41,550 nt of DNA, from assembly GCA_030750465.1 (NCBI GenBank), contig JASMHZ010000009.1, positions 1 through 41,550 of the forward strand. The letters run 5' to 3'. The position numbers and the translations under genes are program-made. Positions 1 to 40,318 of this stretch are shown piece by piece. The first letter of the stretch is position 1; each line of letters begins with the position of its first letter. The stretch is from Candidatus Peribacteraceae bacterium (GTDB taxonomy: Bacteria > Patescibacteriota > Gracilibacteria > Peribacterales > Peribacteraceae). A model generated the notes under the pieces. It worked only from the letters and a program-made list of their open reading frames with translations. It was not told where the DNA came from and searched no databases.

Positions 1-1683
1 TTAAACCGCGGAGCGAACTTAAGCGGCGAACCATGTCTCGAAGAACAAATTGGTGAATGCTGCGGACTTTGCAAAGGAAAACTGATGCAGGAGGAATATG
101 CTGACCGCATTCAGAATATAATTAAGTTTCTTAAAGGAGATCGCAAGCCTGCGATCAGCAAACTGGCTGAAGAGATGAGAAAAGCTGCTGAAAATAAAAA
201 GTTTGAGCGTGCGGCTAAACTTAGAGACGCTTTAACGTCTATAGAAAGAATGGAAGAACAACAACTTGTCTCCGACACTTCCGGTGAAGACATGGATGTG
301 ATCGGGATGTCGGTACTTAATGGGAAAGCTCAAGTAGTTCTCTTTAAACAACGCTTAGGAAAAGTAATTGATGAACTGAGTCTTACTCTTGCAGGACAGG
401 CTGAGTCGGAGGCGCAAGCTCTATCACAATTCATTCCTCAATATTATTCGGAGTCACCTGATATTCCCCCATTGATTGTAATTGGCAAAGAATTGGATGA
501 ACTACAAACACTCGAAGAGTGGTTACGTGAACAATCCGGACGAGCAACAGAACTTAGAGCTGCTGAGCGCGGAAATAAGTCTAAACTCTTGGCACTTGCC
601 GAAAAAAACGCTCATGAGAAACTAAAAGCACTGGAGACAAAATGGGAAGCTGCAGCGAAAAATACCGAATTAGCTTTAACTGATCTGAAAGAGGAACTTA
701 ACCTTCCTGATATTCCTAAAAGAATCGAGTGCTATGACATCTCGCACACAAGCGGAACGGAAACTGTGGGAAGCATGTCTGTTGCAAAGAACGGCAAAGC
801 TGCGAATGACCAATACAGGCATTTTACAATCCGAACTCTTAAGGAAGGAGAGATCGATGATTACAAAGCACTGGCTGAAGTTTTGAAGAGAAGACTTCGA
901 TACCTTGTAGTTAACCTTAAGGAAGAAGAGGCTAAGTGGAAAACCAAAGGAATCACTATTGGTAGAGCAAGAAAGGGCGAACAGGAAAAAATTGCAGAAA
1001 TAATTAATGCTGAACCGGAACTTAGTGATGAAGATTTGGATTACAGAGATTTCACAGTTGCACGAAAAGAAAAAGAAATCATTGCATTTGTCCGGCACAT
1101 GATTAATAAGGAGAAAACCCAAGAGCTAAAGTCGCTTTGGGTTAATCTGGAATACCGCAGCGATAAACTTGGTCAATTCTTAGCGCGAAAAGCATTAAGC
1201 AAAATTAAAAAAGGAAAGGTTTACATAATTTTTGCCCCGGAATCGAATCTGGAAGAGTACTACAGCGAAATAGGCTTCCGCCACATTCACGATGCACCGA
1301 AAATACTTAAGGAAAAAACTGCAAAGTTTGTAGTAAAACTTCCCCTCGGTAGAAAACTCGGACTCTTTATGATGTACGACACTGCGAAAAACAAAGCTGA
1401 CTCTTCTTTAAGTTCAAAACCGGACCTGATTGTTATTGACGGAGGTAAGGGGCAAGTCTCGACTGTTTCGGAAGTTCTTAAAGAATTAGATCTTAAGATT
1501 CCTCTAATTGGAATTGCAAAGAAAGAGGAAGAGATTTTCGTTCCAAACTCGTCGCATCCGATTCCATTTAATAAGGAAGCTCAAGCTGTATTTCTGCTAA
1601 TGAGGCTGAGGAATGAGGCGCACAGATTTGCAAACAGGCTGAGGGAGAAGAAGGCGGAGAAAGTAATGATTGGCAAGCTTTAA
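1..1683 (+). CDS. uvrC: UvrC excinuclease subunit, 5' partial, with inserted GNAT-like domain
   Basis: Nucleotide excision repair nuclease that incises damaged DNA with UvrB. The frame is open to the window edge: 28 codons precede the ATG at 85 and contain the conserved 'PCLEEQIGECCGLC' stretch that follows the GIY-YIG domain, so the start lies outside the window. Counting from the ATG at 85, a UVR (UvrB-binding) helix pair lies at about 24-58. The RNase H-like nuclease has 'YDISH' near 217, 'IDGGKGQ' near 451 and 'EAHRFA' near 511, so the expected Asp/Asp/His set is present. Residues about 276-440 are extra to the family and carry a GNAT-like segment with 'SEIGF'. The protein stops shortly after 'EAHRFANRLREKK', so the usual C-terminal helix-hairpin-helix DNA-binding tail is missing. 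Identity is certain; the effect of the insertion and truncation on activity is unknown. Confidence 0.95.
   Translation, partial: LNRGANLSGEPCLEEQIGECCGLCKGKLMQEEYADRIQNIIKFLKGDRKPAISKLAEEMRKAAENKKFERAAKLRDALTSIERMEEQQLVSDTSGEDMDVIGMSVLNGKAQVVLFKQRLGKVIDELSLTLAGQAESEAQALSQFIPQYYSESPDIPPLIVIGKELDELQTLEEWLREQSGRATELRAAERGNKSKLLALAEKNAHEKLKALETKWEAAAKNTELALTDLKEELNLPDIPKRIECYDISHTSGTETVGSMSVAKNGKAANDQYRHFTIRTLKEGEIDDYKALAEVLKRRLRYLVVNLKEEEAKWKTKGITIGRARKGEQEKIAEIINAEPELSDEDLDYRDFTVARKEKEIIAFVRHMINKEKTQELKSLWVNLEYRSDKLGQFLARKALSKIKKGKVYIIFAPESNLEEYYSEIGFRHIHDAPKILKEKTAKFVVKLPLGRKLGLFMMYDTAKNKADSSLSSKPDLIVIDGGKGQVSTVSEVLKELDLKIPLIGIAKKEEEIFVPNSSHPIPFNKEAQAVFLLMRLRNEAHRFANRLREKKAEKVMIGKL
910..1404 (+). 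other. GNAT-like domain insertion within UvrC
   Basis: The segment lies between the nuclease-domain helix ending 'EVLKRRLRYL' and the strand 'KPDLIVIDGGKGQ', which are close together in ordinary UvrC. It reads like an N-acetyltransferase fold: a 'TIGRARKGEQEKI' start, a strand 'EIIAFVRHM', then 'LWVNLEYRSDKLGQFL' in the acetyl-CoA loop position and 'EEYYSEIGF' as the typical end. The loop RSDKLG departs from the usual R/QxxGxG/A, so acetyl-CoA binding may be weak or lost. Boundaries are approximate. Confidence 0.75.
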
Positions 1684-5976: not shown

Positions 5977-8900
5977 TTATATCTGCCTCTTCTTCTTCCT
6001 TCTCTTGATGTCTGCGGCATAGAAATATCGCTGTCCATAATTTATTACCTTACCCCTCCTATCCAACTTAGCTAAAGTAAGGAACCATCCTCTGCTGGAA
6101 TGGCCGCGAGCCAAAATTAATGCACCATCTTCAGCTGCTTTCATAGATGATATTTCTTTAACAGGAACAAGATCTGGGGCTCCATATTTCTCAACCAAAG
6201 CACGGAAGTAATCAAGCCTCTCGCCTCTTTGCGCTGTTGCAACATCCTGGAGTGAAATTTCCAGAAGTTCTTCATGCGGAATTTCCTGAATTGAACCGTG
6301 TGCTTCAATCATTGCATGAATCGAATCAACAACGTGATCGAACTTGCGTTTCTCACCATGATGTTCTTCCTTTGCCTGCGATTGCTCTGCAGGAGTTTTG
6401 TACTCAACATCTCTTTCTCCTATCTTGAACCTTTCATGGTATGAACCCGGAGGCGCTTCTTCAGGATCTGCCGGCGTGCCGTTATGTCCTCCATATCCAC
6501 TTCCACTCCAGCGAGGCGGGTGTCCGAAGTGCAGTTTTTTATGATCAGTTGGGATAACCATTTCCATATCAGTTGGATCGCCCGTTTTTTTGACTGTAAT
6601 AATAAATCCATGGAATTGTTCCTCGTCCTCATTATCCGTAGATGTAACATAATTCGTATGTTCTTTTACAATTTCGAATCCAAAGAACTTTTGAAGTACA
6701 AAACAGAAGTCATCGAACTCTTCATCTGTTTGAAAGATACCAGGAGGCAAAGTTATCACGGCGACCCCGCCAGGTTTCAAGATGCGATTCATTTCTCTTA
6801 GGGCTCTGACTCTTTCTTCTCCGTCATTGGAAGGTTTTCGCGGGTTGTGGCGCGTGTAATGCAGAGCAAGAGAGTGAACAATCATGTGCTGCGATTCATT
6901 TTCATACGGCAGTTCGTCCATCGAACATTCATCTACCAAACTTTCATCCAGATCATCACCGTACATTCCCCTTCCAACTTCAAGCATAGCTGCAGATAGG
7001 TCGCTTGATCGCACTACCAAATCTTCTCTGTGCTTTAGATTGCGTGCCATCGCCATTGTACCTGCCGCAACATCTGCAATGTTTAGAACCGAGTCGCCTG
7101 AACAATCTTTAACTCCTTGCATATGCTCCTCCAAAACTCCCATTACAACGCGGCGGTTGTTTCCCGCATGTGACAACTCTTCCTCTTGCCCATAATGGTA
7201 CGCTAATTCTTTTGCATACTTCCCGTCTTTGCCTTCGAAGAATTCTTTAACCTTCTCTTTACCCTGGTTGAATATTTGCTTGAAGATAAACATAATTTTC
7301 TGCCTTGGGGTCATTGCTTCATACGCCAGGTAACCGCCTCTATTAACTTTGCACGTCTCATCGCTAAGGATCTGTTCTTCCTCCTCTGTAAGCGGAGCTC
7401 CTTGCAAGAGTCTTTCTATGATTACCTTTTTTCGTTCTGCAAATTCCCACATAGCCTGCTCGATGGTTCCCGCCATAATGCATCGCCTGTACGACATTGG
7501 GCAATCTCGTCCCCATCTCTGACCACGCCCAAACCATTGCCATTCTTCAGAGATTACTGAAGTTGGGGTCCCCATTCTGTGGAAGTGCACGCACGAAAGA
7601 TCTATTCCGACCCCTACAGTATCTGTGCGAGCAAATAGGACTGCATCCCGTTCGCAATCTCTGTATTCAGCAATTACTTTTCTGGTAGCTGTCATAGATG
7701 CGCCGTCATTATCAATCAAAGCTGCGCCATCACCACCAAACAACGGATCTCCTCCTGTATTAGTTCCATCAAGAATGAATGTTTCAATGTTTTCTTCTGC
7801 AAGTCTCTTTCTAATTCTTCCAACAATATAAGCATTGGTATCACTAGTCTCTGGATTATTGCTTCCAGTGATTTTATCAGCTGATTTCAAGGCTCTTTCT
7901 TCATCTGTACCAAAGTCTCTTGTCATTCCCTTTGCATCTCCAGTCATTCCAAATGAAATTCGTACTGGGCTTGTTCCTGAAGCACGAGCCTGTTTTATGT
8001 CCTCAACAATAACGTCGATAAGTTGCTGTTCCTTCTCTGGACTCATTGCACTTTGCTTCCAGAGTTCGTGAATCTTTTCGGTTGCATCAAAGAATGGATC
8101 TTCTCTGATGGCTTCGTACAAAGCGCGTCTGTATTCGTTCAACTCTGCATAGTGCGGCTCTTGCACATTAGGTGCAAAGCCGACTGGCAAGCTGTCTTCT
8201 GTTTCGCGCCTAAGCATCCTAAGGGACAGAAGGTTTCTAACAAGCCTTGTATGCTTGTCTCTGATAGCATCTCTGATTGACTTGATATTCGAGAAGTCTA
8301 CTGTCTCTTTACCTCCAGGCACTCCCGGAGTTTTCGATCTGTCTTGCCCTGCATTCAAGAACCTGAGCGATGCGGCAACATCGTCGATTGTGTTGTAGAT
8401 CGGTGTAGCTGTTGCAAGCACCATGTATCCTTCTTTGACTGTATCGCATTGTGAAATTCTGAATGCTCTCTCGTGGTCAGCTCCGCCTGGCTTTCTTAAG
8501 TAATGCGACTCGTCCATAGTCATAAAGTCCGCACCAACCCTCTTTGCAAGCTCTTCGTTTAGAACATCGGCACCAAGTTCAACACCAAGCTTGTCTGCAA
8601 ATGTCTGATCGTTGATCGGAGTGCTATGGCGCGCCATCGAGTAACTCATCAGAACATATTCAGATTCTTCGAATGCCTTCTTCCATTCCTTCCAACGTTC
8701 CGCTCTGTTGTTTGGATGAATTACTGCTACATTTGGTTTATCTGTAAAGTAACCTTCGCCATCACTTAAGCGCTTTTCCCATTCTCCAAGTACGCTAGGT
8801 GGGCAAAGAATGAGTGCCTTGTTTGCCTTACCTTGTTCACGGAGATATTCGAAAGTAGCAATACAGCTTCCTGTTTTTCCTGCTCCAACATCATCTGCAA

Positions 8901-9891
8901 GCAGAAGTTGTCTTTGTCTTTCTATTTCCACCATGCTGATTCGCTGATGTTGCGCAGGATAATCTTTTCCTTCTCCAATCTTATCTTTAAGTCTTGCAGG
9001 CTGAGCTAAGTTCTCGGCTTTTATGAAGTACTCTTCAAGCTCGCCAACAAACTGTCCCCGAATTTTTTTCTCATCTGGTTCAGCATCTGATTCCTGAATT
9101 CCCTGTCTTGCTTTCGCCAACTGGCCGAGCACGAGTGAAGCATCAGGATGATCTTTGTAGTAATGAGTGTAGTAATAATCTCTTCGTTTATTGAAAAGCA
9201 AATCTCTTAGAGCTCTGTGTTTGTCCTCTTGCAGAATCGGTACCGGCACATCTTCGAGAGGGTCTCCTGTGTAATGTTGGAATTGACCGATGTGCTCGCG
9301 AAGGTTTTGAATGTCGCGGTCGTTAAATTCAAACTTGTCGCGGAATACTTCGGACCAGTAGTCGGCAAGAGCAACTTCTCCGAGTTCCGCATACAAAGCT
9401 CTGTAAGCTTTTAGTTCGCCTGCGGGAATATACCCCTGGGCGAGAAGCTCTAGCGGCGGAAGCTCCGGACAGAAATCTGCTCTAAGAACCTGGCAAGCTT
9501 GAATACCATCTTGAGTCACTTTGTTTCTGTTAACCGGCTTCTTCTGTTTCCAACGCATCACAACTTCCTCTATATGTTTTCGGAGTTCCACCAATACTGT
9601 TTTTATTTCTTTTATAGTGCCGTCCATACTATCCGGAACATGTTCCAACTGACCGAGCATCTTCCTGATTTCTTTACACAATTCTCCAAGAGCCTGCCTG
9701 TTTTCCAGATCTCCGTGCTGTTTTATAAGTGCTTCGATTCTGCTTCTGATTTCGTCAAAGAGAGGATGCTTTACCTTGTCTGACCTGTGGTCCACACCTA
9801 TGGCTTGATATCGGAGTTCCAATTGACTCAAAAGCCAGCCCTCGGGGAGGACTTTTGCGCTAGCCGGAGAGGTTTCATTGGCACTTGCCAT
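5977..9891 (-). CDS. SNF2-type helicase fused to a class I methyltransferase
   Basis: A 1304-residue multidomain protein. Positions below count from the ORF-track start; subtract 13 for the start chosen here. Residues 1-320 are helical and unassigned. The SNF2-like ATPase has 'DDVGAGKT' near 346 (motif I), 'MDESHYL' near 472 (motif II), 'LATATP' near 505 (motif III) and 'GRGQRWGRD' near 801 (motif VI). Residues about 930-1115 are a Rossmann methyltransferase with 'IADVAAGTMAMA' (SAM loop), 'HSLALHYT' and 'ILKPGGVAVITLP'. There is no NPPY/DPPY motif, so it resembles UbiE-type rather than amino-DNA methyltransferases. A linker and a small basic C-terminal domain follow. I chose the ATG at 9891 (MASANETS) because promoter elements occupy the extra upstream codons. 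It is divergent from the 259-residue orphan. A DNA-remodelling role coupled to methylation is inferred; the substrate is unknown. Confidence 0.85.
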   Translation of the reverse strand: MASANETSPASAKVLPEGWLLSQLELRYQAIGVDHRSDKVKHPLFDEIRSRIEALIKQHGDLENRQALGELCKEIRKMLGQLEHVPDSMDGTIKEIKTVLVELRKHIEEVVMRWKQKKPVNRNKVTQDGIQACQVLRADFCPELPPLELLAQGYIPAGELKAYRALYAELGEVALADYWSEVFRDKFEFNDRDIQNLREHIGQFQHYTGDPLEDVPVPILQEDKHRALRDLLFNKRRDYYYTHYYKDHPDASLVLGQLAKARQGIQESDAEPDEKKIRGQFVGELEEYFIKAENLAQPARLKDKIGEGKDYPAQHQRISMVEIERQRQLLLADDVGAGKTGSCIATFEYLREQGKANKALILCPPSVLGEWEKRLSDGEGYFTDKPNVAVIHPNNRAERWKEWKKAFEESEYVLMSYSMARHSTPINDQTFADKLGVELGADVLNEELAKRVGADFMTMDESHYLRKPGGADHERAFRISQCDTVKEGYMVLATATPIYNTIDDVAASLRFLNAGQDRSKTPGVPGGKETVDFSNIKSIRDAIRDKHTRLVRNLLSLRMLRRETEDSLPVGFAPNVQEPHYAELNEYRRALYEAIREDPFFDATEKIHELWKQSAMSPEKEQQLIDVIVEDIKQARASGTSPVRISFGMTGDAKGMTRDFGTDEERALKSADKITGSNNPETSDTNAYIVGRIRKRLAEENIETFILDGTNTGGDPLFGGDGAALIDNDGASMTATRKVIAEYRDCERDAVLFARTDTVGVGIDLSCVHFHRMGTPTSVISEEWQWFGRGQRWGRDCPMSYRRCIMAGTIEQAMWEFAERKKVIIERLLQGAPLTEEEEQILSDETCKVNRGGYLAYEAMTPRQKIMFIFKQIFNQGKEKVKEFFEGKDGKYAKELAYHYGQEEELSHAGNNRRVVMGVLEEHMQGVKDCSGDSVLNIADVAAGTMAMARNLKHREDLVVRSSDLSAAMLEVGRGMYGDDLDESLVDECSMDELPYENESQHMIVHSLALHYTRHNPRKPSNDGEERVRALREMNRILKPGGVAVITLPPGIFQTDEEFDDFCFVLQKFFGFEIVKEHTNYVTSTDNEDEEQFHGFIITVKKTGDPTDMEMVIPTDHKKLHFGHPPRWSGSGYGGHNGTPADPEEAPPGSYHERFKIGERDVEYKTPAEQSQAKEEHHGEKRKFDHVVDSIHAMIEAHGSIQEIPHEELLEISLQDVATAQRGERLDYFRALVEKYGAPDLVPVKEISSMKAAEDGALILARGHSSRGWFLTLAKLDRRGKVINYGQRYFYAADIKRRKKKRQI

Positions 9892-9901
9892 AAAGTATAG
9901 A

Positions 9902-9930
9902 ATTTTACTTAATATATATTGACAAATCAA
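9902..9930 (-). promoter_or_regulatory. Promoter of the helicase-methyltransferase gene
   Basis: On the minus strand TTGATT (9930-9925), a 17-base spacer and TAAAAT (9907-9902) lie 10 bases before the ATG at 9891. The transcript would have at most a few leader bases. It interlocks with the plus-strand promoter at 9919. Confidence 0.6.
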
Positions 9931-37891: not shown

Positions 37892-40318
37892 ATGTTTGAA
37901 CGCCGTTCCCGCCTTTGGCCGTCTCTGACTATCGTAATTGCAATTTTGGTCGTAGTTATAGCATTGCCACAGGAGAAACGCACATGGGTTCCTTCTTTTC
38001 TAAGGATTCCTAAGCTTCATTATGGTTTGGATCTGATTGGGGGTACTCAATTGGATTTTAGAATCTCTGAAAGAGAAATGAGGGAACAAACAGAATCGTT
38101 GGAGGCAGATATCGTAACTATGGAAAAAGAAGGCGCTCCTCCGGAGAAGCTTAACGCTGCGCGAGCCCAGATAATTGCTCTGCAGGAACAACAGCAGACA
38201 ATTGTTGAAGCTATACGCACAGTTTTGGAACGACGCATTAATGCACTTGGCGTTAGCGAGGCAGTTATAACGCCGTCATATATAGGAAACGAGAAGCACT
38301 TGCTGGTTGAATGTCCCGGAGTTGTAAACACCCAAGATTGCATCGATACTGTAGGTAAAACTATCAAACTTGAGTTTAAGGAAGAATTTACAGAGCCTAC
38401 CGAAGAGTTCGAAGTTAGCGTAAATGATCGAGTTGCCAGCGCCTTATCCAGAATCACAGAAAGTGGAGAGACATTGTCGCTTGTAGGACAAGACCTTAGT
38501 GACGAGCTTGGTGTAGGATTCGAAGATGAACGTGCCTACTTCTACGACGAACTGCATGCGGGGCTGGAAGTAATGTGGGATCGCAGTCCTTCGTCTGGTG
38601 TAAAAAAGTTTGAAGGAAGTATCTCTATCCCCGAACAAGTTGATGGAGAAATCGTATTCAACGACTATCCTGGAATTTTCCTCGCCGAAGTAACCAAGGA
38701 AAACGAGAAAATTGCACGCGTAATCACAGATCCTGCTATTGCCTTGGAGCATTTGGCGAATACTAATGAAGGCTTATCTTTTGAAAGCTTTGAAGATCAA
38801 GTTTTAGAAAATGAATCGGATCCTGTTGAACAAGCTTTGAAAGCTACGATTGTTGGACGTATGCAGAACGTTAGTATTGATGAGAAAACAATGCAGATCA
38901 TTTACCTCAAGTCTCTTGATAAAGGGGCGGAAGAAATGTCTGCGAGCCACATCCTGATTGCATATAAAGGAACCTTGTCTGCAGAAGAAGATGTGACTAG
39001 AACTCGATCGGAAGCGCAAGAGTTTGTACAAGAGCTTAAGAAGAGAATTGCAGAAGGTGAAATTTTTGAAGATTTGGCTAAGGAGTTTTCCGACGGACCT
39101 TCTGGTTCGGAGGGAGGAAGTCTGGGAACCTTCGGCCAAGGTGCAATGGTACCAGTGTTCGAGCAAGCCGCGTTTGCATTGAGCGAAGGTAAAATCAGTG
39201 AGCCAGTTGAAACCCAATTTGGTTTCCATCTTATTCGAGCAGACAGCGCTTTAATCACTAAGCCAGACATTGCTTCATACGATGTACTTACTATCAAAGA
39301 CGATAATGCTTCTGACCTCTCTCTTAAATACAAGACCGACATGGAAAACAGGAAAGTGGAACGCGAAGAAGAAGCTGCTTATATACGTACCCTTTTCTTC
39401 TCTTTGCTCCCAACAGGATGGAAAGATACATCGCTTGATGGAAAACATTTCCAATCCGCAACAGTCACACTGGATTCGACCACTAACCTTCCTGTGGTTC
39501 AGATAATGTTCGATGCGCAGGGAGGCGAGATCTTCCATGAGCTTACAAAGAATAATGTTAGCAAAAGAATCGCAATTTTTGTTGGAGGACAATTGGTCTC
39601 TGCACCAACGGTTCAAACAGAGATCGCAGGAGGAATTGCGATAATCACCGGAAGCAGAACATTCGAGGAAGCAAAGACTCTCGCACAGGATCTAAATACA
39701 GGCGCAATTCCGGCTCCTATCTATCTGACAGGCCAAAGGACTGTGGAGGCTACTCTCGGTGCAAAAGCACTCCAGACCTCTGTAAAGGCTGCTCTGATCG
39801 GCATAGCCATTCTTATGCTCTTTATGATCTTGATGTACAGACTTATGGGGCTTTTGGCAGACTTGGCATTGTTTGTTTACGCTCTGATATTTTTGACAGT
39901 GCTTAAGCTTCCTCTGTTCCTTCTGTCTGACCAGTACATTGTTCTAACTCTCGCAGGAATGGCCGGAATAATTCTCTCGATTGGAATGGCAGTTGATGCA
40001 AATATTCTAATTTTTGAAAGGATTAAAGAGGAACTTAGGAAGGGCAAATTATATAAGACCGCGGTTGAGACCGGCTTTGAGCGTGCATGGCCAAGCATTC
40101 GCGATGGTAACGTTTCAACGTTTATAACCTGCATAGTCCTGTTTACAATTGGAACTTCCATAGTCCGCGGATTCGCCGCAACTCTTGGTATGGGAGTCTT
40201 GATCTCTATGTTCTCTGCAATTGTTGTGACCAGATTTTTACTTAGGCAACTCGCCAAGTCTCCGATTTCGGAGAATATGGAAATGTTTGGAATTAAAAGA
40301 GAGATAACCGAGGAATAA
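37892..40318 (+). CDS. secD: SecD translocase subunit with inserted parvulin (PpiC) domain, 808 aa
   Basis: SecD works with SecF after SecYEG to pull exported proteins across the membrane using proton flow. It has helix 1 near 10-26, then 'YGLDLIGGTQLDFRI' near 44, a coiled coil (about 60-110), 'IRTVLERRINALGVSE' and the rest of the first periplasmic subdomain. Residues about 347-455 are a full parvulin-type prolyl isomerase: 'ASHILIAYKG', 'FEDLAKEFSDGPSGSEGGSL', 'AAFALSEGKISEPVETQFGF', 'HLIRAD'. The P1 head ('VVQIMFDAQGGEIFHELTK' near 535) and five C-terminal helices follow, with conserved 'GMAVDANILIFERIKEE' near 698. At 808 residues it is far longer than the usual 400-620. No secF follows in this window. 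The start is supported by a -10 box 7 bases upstream. Confidence 0.95.
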   Translation: MFERRSRLWPSLTIVIAILVVVIALPQEKRTWVPSFLRIPKLHYGLDLIGGTQLDFRISEREMREQTESLEADIVTMEKEGAPPEKLNAARAQIIALQEQQQTIVEAIRTVLERRINALGVSEAVITPSYIGNEKHLLVECPGVVNTQDCIDTVGKTIKLEFKEEFTEPTEEFEVSVNDRVASALSRITESGETLSLVGQDLSDELGVGFEDERAYFYDELHAGLEVMWDRSPSSGVKKFEGSISIPEQVDGEIVFNDYPGIFLAEVTKENEKIARVITDPAIALEHLANTNEGLSFESFEDQVLENESDPVEQALKATIVGRMQNVSIDEKTMQIIYLKSLDKGAEEMSASHILIAYKGTLSAEEDVTRTRSEAQEFVQELKKRIAEGEIFEDLAKEFSDGPSGSEGGSLGTFGQGAMVPVFEQAAFALSEGKISEPVETQFGFHLIRADSALITKPDIASYDVLTIKDDNASDLSLKYKTDMENRKVEREEEAAYIRTLFFSLLPTGWKDTSLDGKHFQSATVTLDSTTNLPVVQIMFDAQGGEIFHELTKNNVSKRIAIFVGGQLVSAPTVQTEIAGGIAIITGSRTFEEAKTLAQDLNTGAIPAPIYLTGQRTVEATLGAKALQTSVKAALIGIAILMLFMILMYRLMGLLADLALFVYALIFLTVLKLPLFLLSDQYIVLTLAGMAGIILSIGMAVDANILIFERIKEELRKGKLYKTAVETGFERAWPSIRDGNVSTFITCIVLFTIGTSIVRGFAATLGMGVLISMFSAIVVTRFLLRQLAKSPISENMEMFGIKREITEE
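38930..39256 (+). other. Parvulin/PpiC domain insertion within SecD
   Basis: About 109 codons encode a complete rotamase domain with the family's beginning (SASHILI), the GG.LG.F motif ('SEGGSLGTFGQGAMVPVFEQ') and the closing 'FGFHLI'. It is flanked on both sides by SecD periplasmic sequence in the same frame. Confidence 0.9.

Follow-up and report, generated by a model that had tools for sequence, protein, structure and literature searches.

UvrC occurs in almost all bacteria and is highly conserved, yet a class of Patescibacteria has rebuilt its nuclease around another enzyme fold while keeping the catalytic residues. Here, we ask what this inserted domain is, when it arrived and what it might do for the repair enzyme. 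We start from the uvrC gene of the window (the whole stretch of 41,550 nucleotides that was analyzed) of a Candidatus Peribacteraceae genome whose named relatives are Ca. Peribacter and Peregrinibacteria.

The features of this gene are shown in Table 1. The window holds the C-terminal 560 residues of UvrC, which reached 301.9 bits with the equivalog model TIGR00194 (cut-off 285.45). The general domain layout of UvrC has been reviewed (PMC7835731). The GIY-YIG domain would lie upstream of the window start, where the gene is cut off, and was found in a 91%-identical sister (L033; Pfam, 5e-11). The frame stops at position 1683, right after the nuclease domain and without a C-terminal (HhH)2 domain. 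L004, L007 and L019 lack this domain too, whereas L005, L006 and L008 have it, so more than one loss seems to have occurred; no HhH match was obtained in L033. Since the window protein still passes the equivalog model, it was filed as a UvrC variant. The Pfam match to the 5'-nuclease (PF08459, UvrC_RNaseH_dom) is split into two pieces (688-906 and 1390-1632) with about 160 residues between them. Karakas et al. (2007) reportedly described an Asp-Asp-His triad in the UvrC nuclease. Alignment to solved UvrC structures (3c65/2nrr) placed the triad at D246, D480 and H541, all of which are kept, and the earlier statement that both RNase H catalytic parts are intact was correct. The insertion point is the loop between the helix ending in DDYKALAEVLKRRL and the strand PDLIVIDGG, and the end of the insert adjoins a D-x-S-[LF] element, which many ordinary UvrCs also have ahead of their PDLLVIDGG strand.

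Table 1. Features of the uvrC gene at the start of the window
Feature	Position	Strand	Evidence
uvrC, 5' part missing at contig start	1..1683	+	ORF; TIGR00194 over cut-off
UVR motif (UvrB-binding element), residues 52-83	154..249	+	PF02151 1.2e-6
UvrC RNase H-like domain PF22920	289..627	+	8e-27
5'-nuclease RNase H, first half, catalytic D246 (736-738)	688..909	+	PF08459 positions 1-71; alignment to 3c65/2nrr
Inserted GNAT domain, between ...EVLKRRLRYL and DSSLSSKPDLIVIDGG	910..1389	+	Profiles, predicted structure, alignments of UvrCs that carry or lack the insert
Acetyl-CoA pyrophosphate loop position, RSDKLG; family consensus RGxKLG	1156..1173	+	Family alignment
GNAT motif B, Tyr four residues ahead of Gly-Phe (YSEIGF)	1261..1278	+	Tyr 61/75, GF 70/75 UvrC GNATs
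5'-nuclease RNase H, second half, catalytic D480 (1438-1440), H541 (1621-1623)	1390..1644	+	PF08459 positions 66-158

The earlier note, made from the letters of the window, had recognized a GNAT-like domain within the nuclease. On its own, the window insert scored over the cut-off with Acetyltransf_1 (24.5 bits; cut-off 20.7), slightly under the cut-off with Acetyltransf_7 (1.3e-5, 26.0 bits; cut-off 27), and matched PRK07757 (3e-8). A phmmer search of PDB with this single insert returned only proteasome noise, and the family profile was needed for GNAT matches. When the family was aligned, 26 of 30 members matched GNAT Pfam models (best 3e-11), and the profile of these 30 inserts found GNAT structures in PDB, with ElaA at the top (9e-8). 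The fold predicted for the insert alone (pLDDT 83.0, pTM 0.80; model from four sequences) gave 298 PDB matches at E <= 0.001; those listed were GNAT-type acetyltransferases, and the best among them were N-acetylglutamate synthase/ArgA. In the predicted full-length model, UvrC C-terminal halves and the same GNATs were matched together. The predictions drew on four or five sequences, and the pTM of the full-length model was 0.47, too low for a reliable placement of the GNAT relative to the nuclease. The identity of the insert as a GNAT is confirmed at the level of sequence profile and predicted fold.

It should be considered whether the segment is instead an ordinary variable loop of UvrC, an assembly chimaera or a chance resemblance to GNATs. 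The site is indeed a loop of variable length in UvrC and the GNAT scores of the window copy itself are modest. However, chance similarity is ruled out by profile, PDB and fold matches that all give GNAT. An assembly artefact or contamination is ruled out, since a second, independent assembly with 91% identity (L033/L004) carries the insert too, as do the single-contig genomes L014 and L018. An ordinary loop is ruled out as well: the insert is found in dozens of genomes, whereas the loop measured only 7-73 residues in 20 chosen comparators from the phylum that lack it. We therefore consider all three explanations extremely improbable. The longest of the comparator loops (to 73 residues) are of low complexity and look like translated repeats. 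A scan for viral contigs found nothing.

The insert was then found to be widely shared, in line with the suggestion that CPR relatives be searched for it. It is present in the UvrC of most sampled families of the class, including nearly all members of the window's own family, and in one family outside the class. Within the class, the insert profile matched in 103 of the 192 sampled genomes, mostly within UvrC-length frames. In nearly all genomes of the phylum sample outside the class, the nuclease domain was a single uninterrupted match, which rules out the insert as a general feature of CPR UvrCs. Among the two-piece cases outside the class that were re-checked, only two genomes of a single family (f39) had this insert. 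In the UvrC tree their proteins group beside the window's family, and thus the insert probably came with UvrC. To our knowledge, the insert is absent from UvrC outside Patescibacteria; it was absent in one Actinomycetota record (L036), which is the sole record behind this statement.

A tree of the UvrC body, with the insert left out, placed the GNAT-bearing copies in a clade (SH-aLRT 98-99) separate from the insert-free members of the phylum, and a few members with an empty loop fell within it. This pattern fits one old insertion followed by later losses. A tree of the inserts together with free-standing GNATs was weakly resolved and did not reject a single clade of UvrC GNATs (p-AU 0.40); several captures of related GNATs would also be compatible with such a tree of a 150-residue insert. 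Profile comparison gave no tie to GNAT for the inserts of L070, L071, L074 and L086, and their derivation from GNAT is only suggested by tree position. The insert has changed faster than its host, with a mean identity in the family of 35% versus 66% for the flanking nuclease halves. Between the window and its nearest relative (L004), the dN/dS of the insert was 0.14, indicating purifying selection. Across the measurable pairs it ranged from 0.05 to 0.42, and purifying selection was generally weaker than on the flanks.

The earlier note had called the acetyl-CoA loop RSDKLG degenerate. Compared with the signature Q/R-x-x-G-x-G/A, the window loop retains the first Arg and the last Gly and has Lys at position 4. 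Free-standing relatives from the class (L179-L181, L183) have RGQKLG or RGKKLG, and ElaA has RGEKVG, so that Lys at position four is a trait of this GNAT subfamily and not decay. The sister loop is RGEKLG, and the only private change of the window at a motif position is from Gly to Ser. The term degenerate thus fits the loop only in part, with respect to this serine and not to the lysine, and the insertion is not the cause. The cofactor loop of the window species is probably weakened, not abolished. Of 75 UvrC GNAT copies, 51 keep the loop signature and 24 have lost it. On the UvrC tree this amounts to no fewer than 16 changes, some of them between close sisters (RGRKLG in L005 versus QDPILV in L008). 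Because the loss is so frequent and often independent, acetyl-CoA chemistry cannot be essential for UvrC. A non-catalytic role, structural or ligand-sensing, had been proposed from the RSDKLG loop; such a role is the one that we favor, on the grounds of the repeated loop loss across the tree and not of that loop.

On the other hand, the domain could be an active acetyltransferase that UvrC carries to sites of DNA damage or to the proteins it works with (UvrB, UvrA, RNA polymerase), which the domain would acetylate, tying repair to the acetyl-CoA level. The intact loop in most copies and the conserved Tyr of motif B (61/75) would speak for this, as would the nearest folds, which are enzymes binding acetyl-CoA and amino acids; furthermore, with RGxKLG in the free-standing relatives and a similar loop in ElaA, the motif is not by itself a sign of a dead site. 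Nevertheless, the signature has been lost even between close sisters whose nuclease has hardly changed, the whole domain has in some cases been removed from the site or has given way there to unrelated folds, and the window copy itself carries RSDKLG. We consider this explanation quite unlikely. Acetyl-CoA use may persist in many lineages, and the conservation of the Tyr, together with the motif in two thirds of copies, would point to a continuing importance of cofactor binding in many of them, which counts against a dispensable chemistry.

Further investigation of the same loop revealed that GNAT is not its only occupant. A serine hydrolase (PF06821, 8e-12, over the cut-off) was found there in G042 (UvrC at L076, 565-3102), a nucleotidyltransferase (PF10706, 2e-6, over the cut-off) in G040 (UvrC at L075, 619-2952) and a DUF559 nuclease (8e-35) in G445 (L163). 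A second type of GNAT occupies the loop in four related genomes (L159-L162) and has an internal Met at the point at which a free-standing gene would begin; two tandem GNATs, the first with a canonical RGKGLG, occupy it in G505 (L100, contig C23). In addition, truncated remnants occur (G009; L068, 90 residues), and the loop is empty in L067, L069, L072 and L164-L167, several of which are close relatives in one family. In G492 (L164), another UvrC loop contains a DUF559-like domain, identified by its likeness to the L163 domain. Peptides that resemble translated repeats, for example PLPEGEG, border the DUF559 inserts. With one loop reused by different enzymes, the conserved UvrC turns out to be a tolerant host for nested enzyme domains.

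Such tolerance might mean that the GNAT is a functionless passenger: the loop would tolerate whatever domain folds and has its ends near each other, and only copies that misfold and harm UvrC would be selected against. This would be consistent with at least five different inserts in the loop, with the low-complexity, repeat-like peptides outside the class, and with the repeated loss, truncated remnants and motif decay described above. However, the insert has been retained in most of the class across a deep tree; the loop Arg and Gly and the Tyr, which are not obviously required for the fold, are conserved in most copies; and dN/dS is as low as 0.05-0.14 in some pairs. A functionless passenger thus seems unlikely.

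Nested domains were not limited to UvrC. Among the class genomes listed, that of the window included, only G042 had an interrupted UvrB. There, a UvrB frame of 1125 residues (L210, contig C69) contains a nested histidine phosphatase and a serine hydrolase that is 37% identical to the one in UvrC of the same genome. IleRS frames in the class are 1.0-1.8 thousand residues long, and those examined had nested segments showing features of a histidine phosphatase, a GNAT or a NUDIX domain; Pfam confirmed five of them. In the window's own genome, IleRS (contig C7, 5000-10200; L211; 1458 residues) carries two nested histidine phosphatases (PF00300, 8e-45 and 4e-38) with intact RHG motifs. A GNAT is nested in the IleRS of L203 and L205, the latter with a histidine phosphatase in addition, and the IleRS of G042 (L219, contig C30) has a nested NUDIX domain (PF00293, 3e-24) and a segment with a phosphatase-like RHG motif. 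A UvrD-like helicase with a nested GNAT was found in G052 (L204). On the basis of these nested domains in IleRS, UvrB and the helicase, the UvrC insert appears to be part of a wider habit of the class. We tentatively suggest, as a possibility somewhat short of even, that the class repeatedly nests small enzyme domains (GNAT, histidine phosphatase, NUDIX, serine hydrolase, nucleotidyltransferase and DUF559 nuclease) in frame at fixed loops of large housekeeping proteins, chiefly UvrC and IleRS. Each site would gain, swap and lose such domains over time, much as though the host proteins formed a scaffold on which a reduced genome carries its small enzymes, and the window UvrC would be one old example.

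Two other multidomain proteins of the window are worth recording. In a SecD-like protein (37892-40318, + strand), the SecD parts are separated by a rotamase domain of the PPIC type (PF13616, 3.5e-27), which is perhaps nested too. A 1317-residue protein (5977-9930, - strand) has a methyltransferase domain after its SNF2-type helicase domain.

Considering all these observations, we favor an accessory module over both the active tethered acetyltransferase and the functionless passenger. The GNAT would be an ancient, autonomous and replaceable module at a permissive loop of UvrC, with a chemistry dispensable for incision, and we consider this slightly more likely than not. A complete ArgA/ElaA-like GNAT would have been inserted in frame into the loop of the 5'-nuclease, most likely once, near the root of the class, and inherited with UvrC afterwards. 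Judging from RNase H topology, the loop should reach the catalytic strand from the end distal to the active site; since it enters the strand away from that site, the nuclease could still fold with its catalytic residues kept. The GNAT would fold as a separate module. It is kept by purifying selection, but its cofactor loop has disappeared time and again, and certain lineages have deleted the entire domain or swapped it for other enzymes. The module may bind a ligand and add surface to UvrC, and acetyl transfer would presumably be unneeded for incision.

No description of a UvrC with a GNAT was found in the open-access literature, in agreement with the earlier note, which knew of no UvrC of such form. 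The word 'undescribed' is provisional here, as subscription papers and domain-architecture databases were outside the scope of the search. With its loop reused by unrelated enzymes, this one protein offers a natural set of exchangeable domains, and close relatives without the insert provide the controls. One can thereby test if the nested domains of reduced genomes are tethered working enzymes, ligand sensors or tolerated passengers. It should also be noted that a plain annotation as 'UvrC' or 'IleRS' hides nested enzyme domains.

Finally, the protein may be compared with known systems. With the UvrCs of T. maritima (2nrt) and D. radiodurans (8b0q), the window copy has in common the UVR, RNase H-like and 5'-nuclease domains and the Asp-Asp-His residues, and its sister L033 also the GIY-YIG domain; it differs from them in the nested GNAT of about 160 residues and in lacking the C-terminal (HhH)2 domain. 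The best fold and profile matches of the insert, the GNAT of ArgA/N-acetylglutamate synthase (2r8v, 5yge) and PRK07757, share with it the full GNAT order of strands and helices and the Tyr ahead of Gly-Phe. In contrast with ArgA/N-acetylglutamate synthase, to which it is about 13-16% identical in fold alignments, the insert is nested in a nuclease and has no kinase-like domain. ElaA of E. coli (5z6n), the top PDB match by sequence profile, has a loop resembling that of the sister species, but it is a free-standing protein, whereas the insert is part of a repair nuclease.
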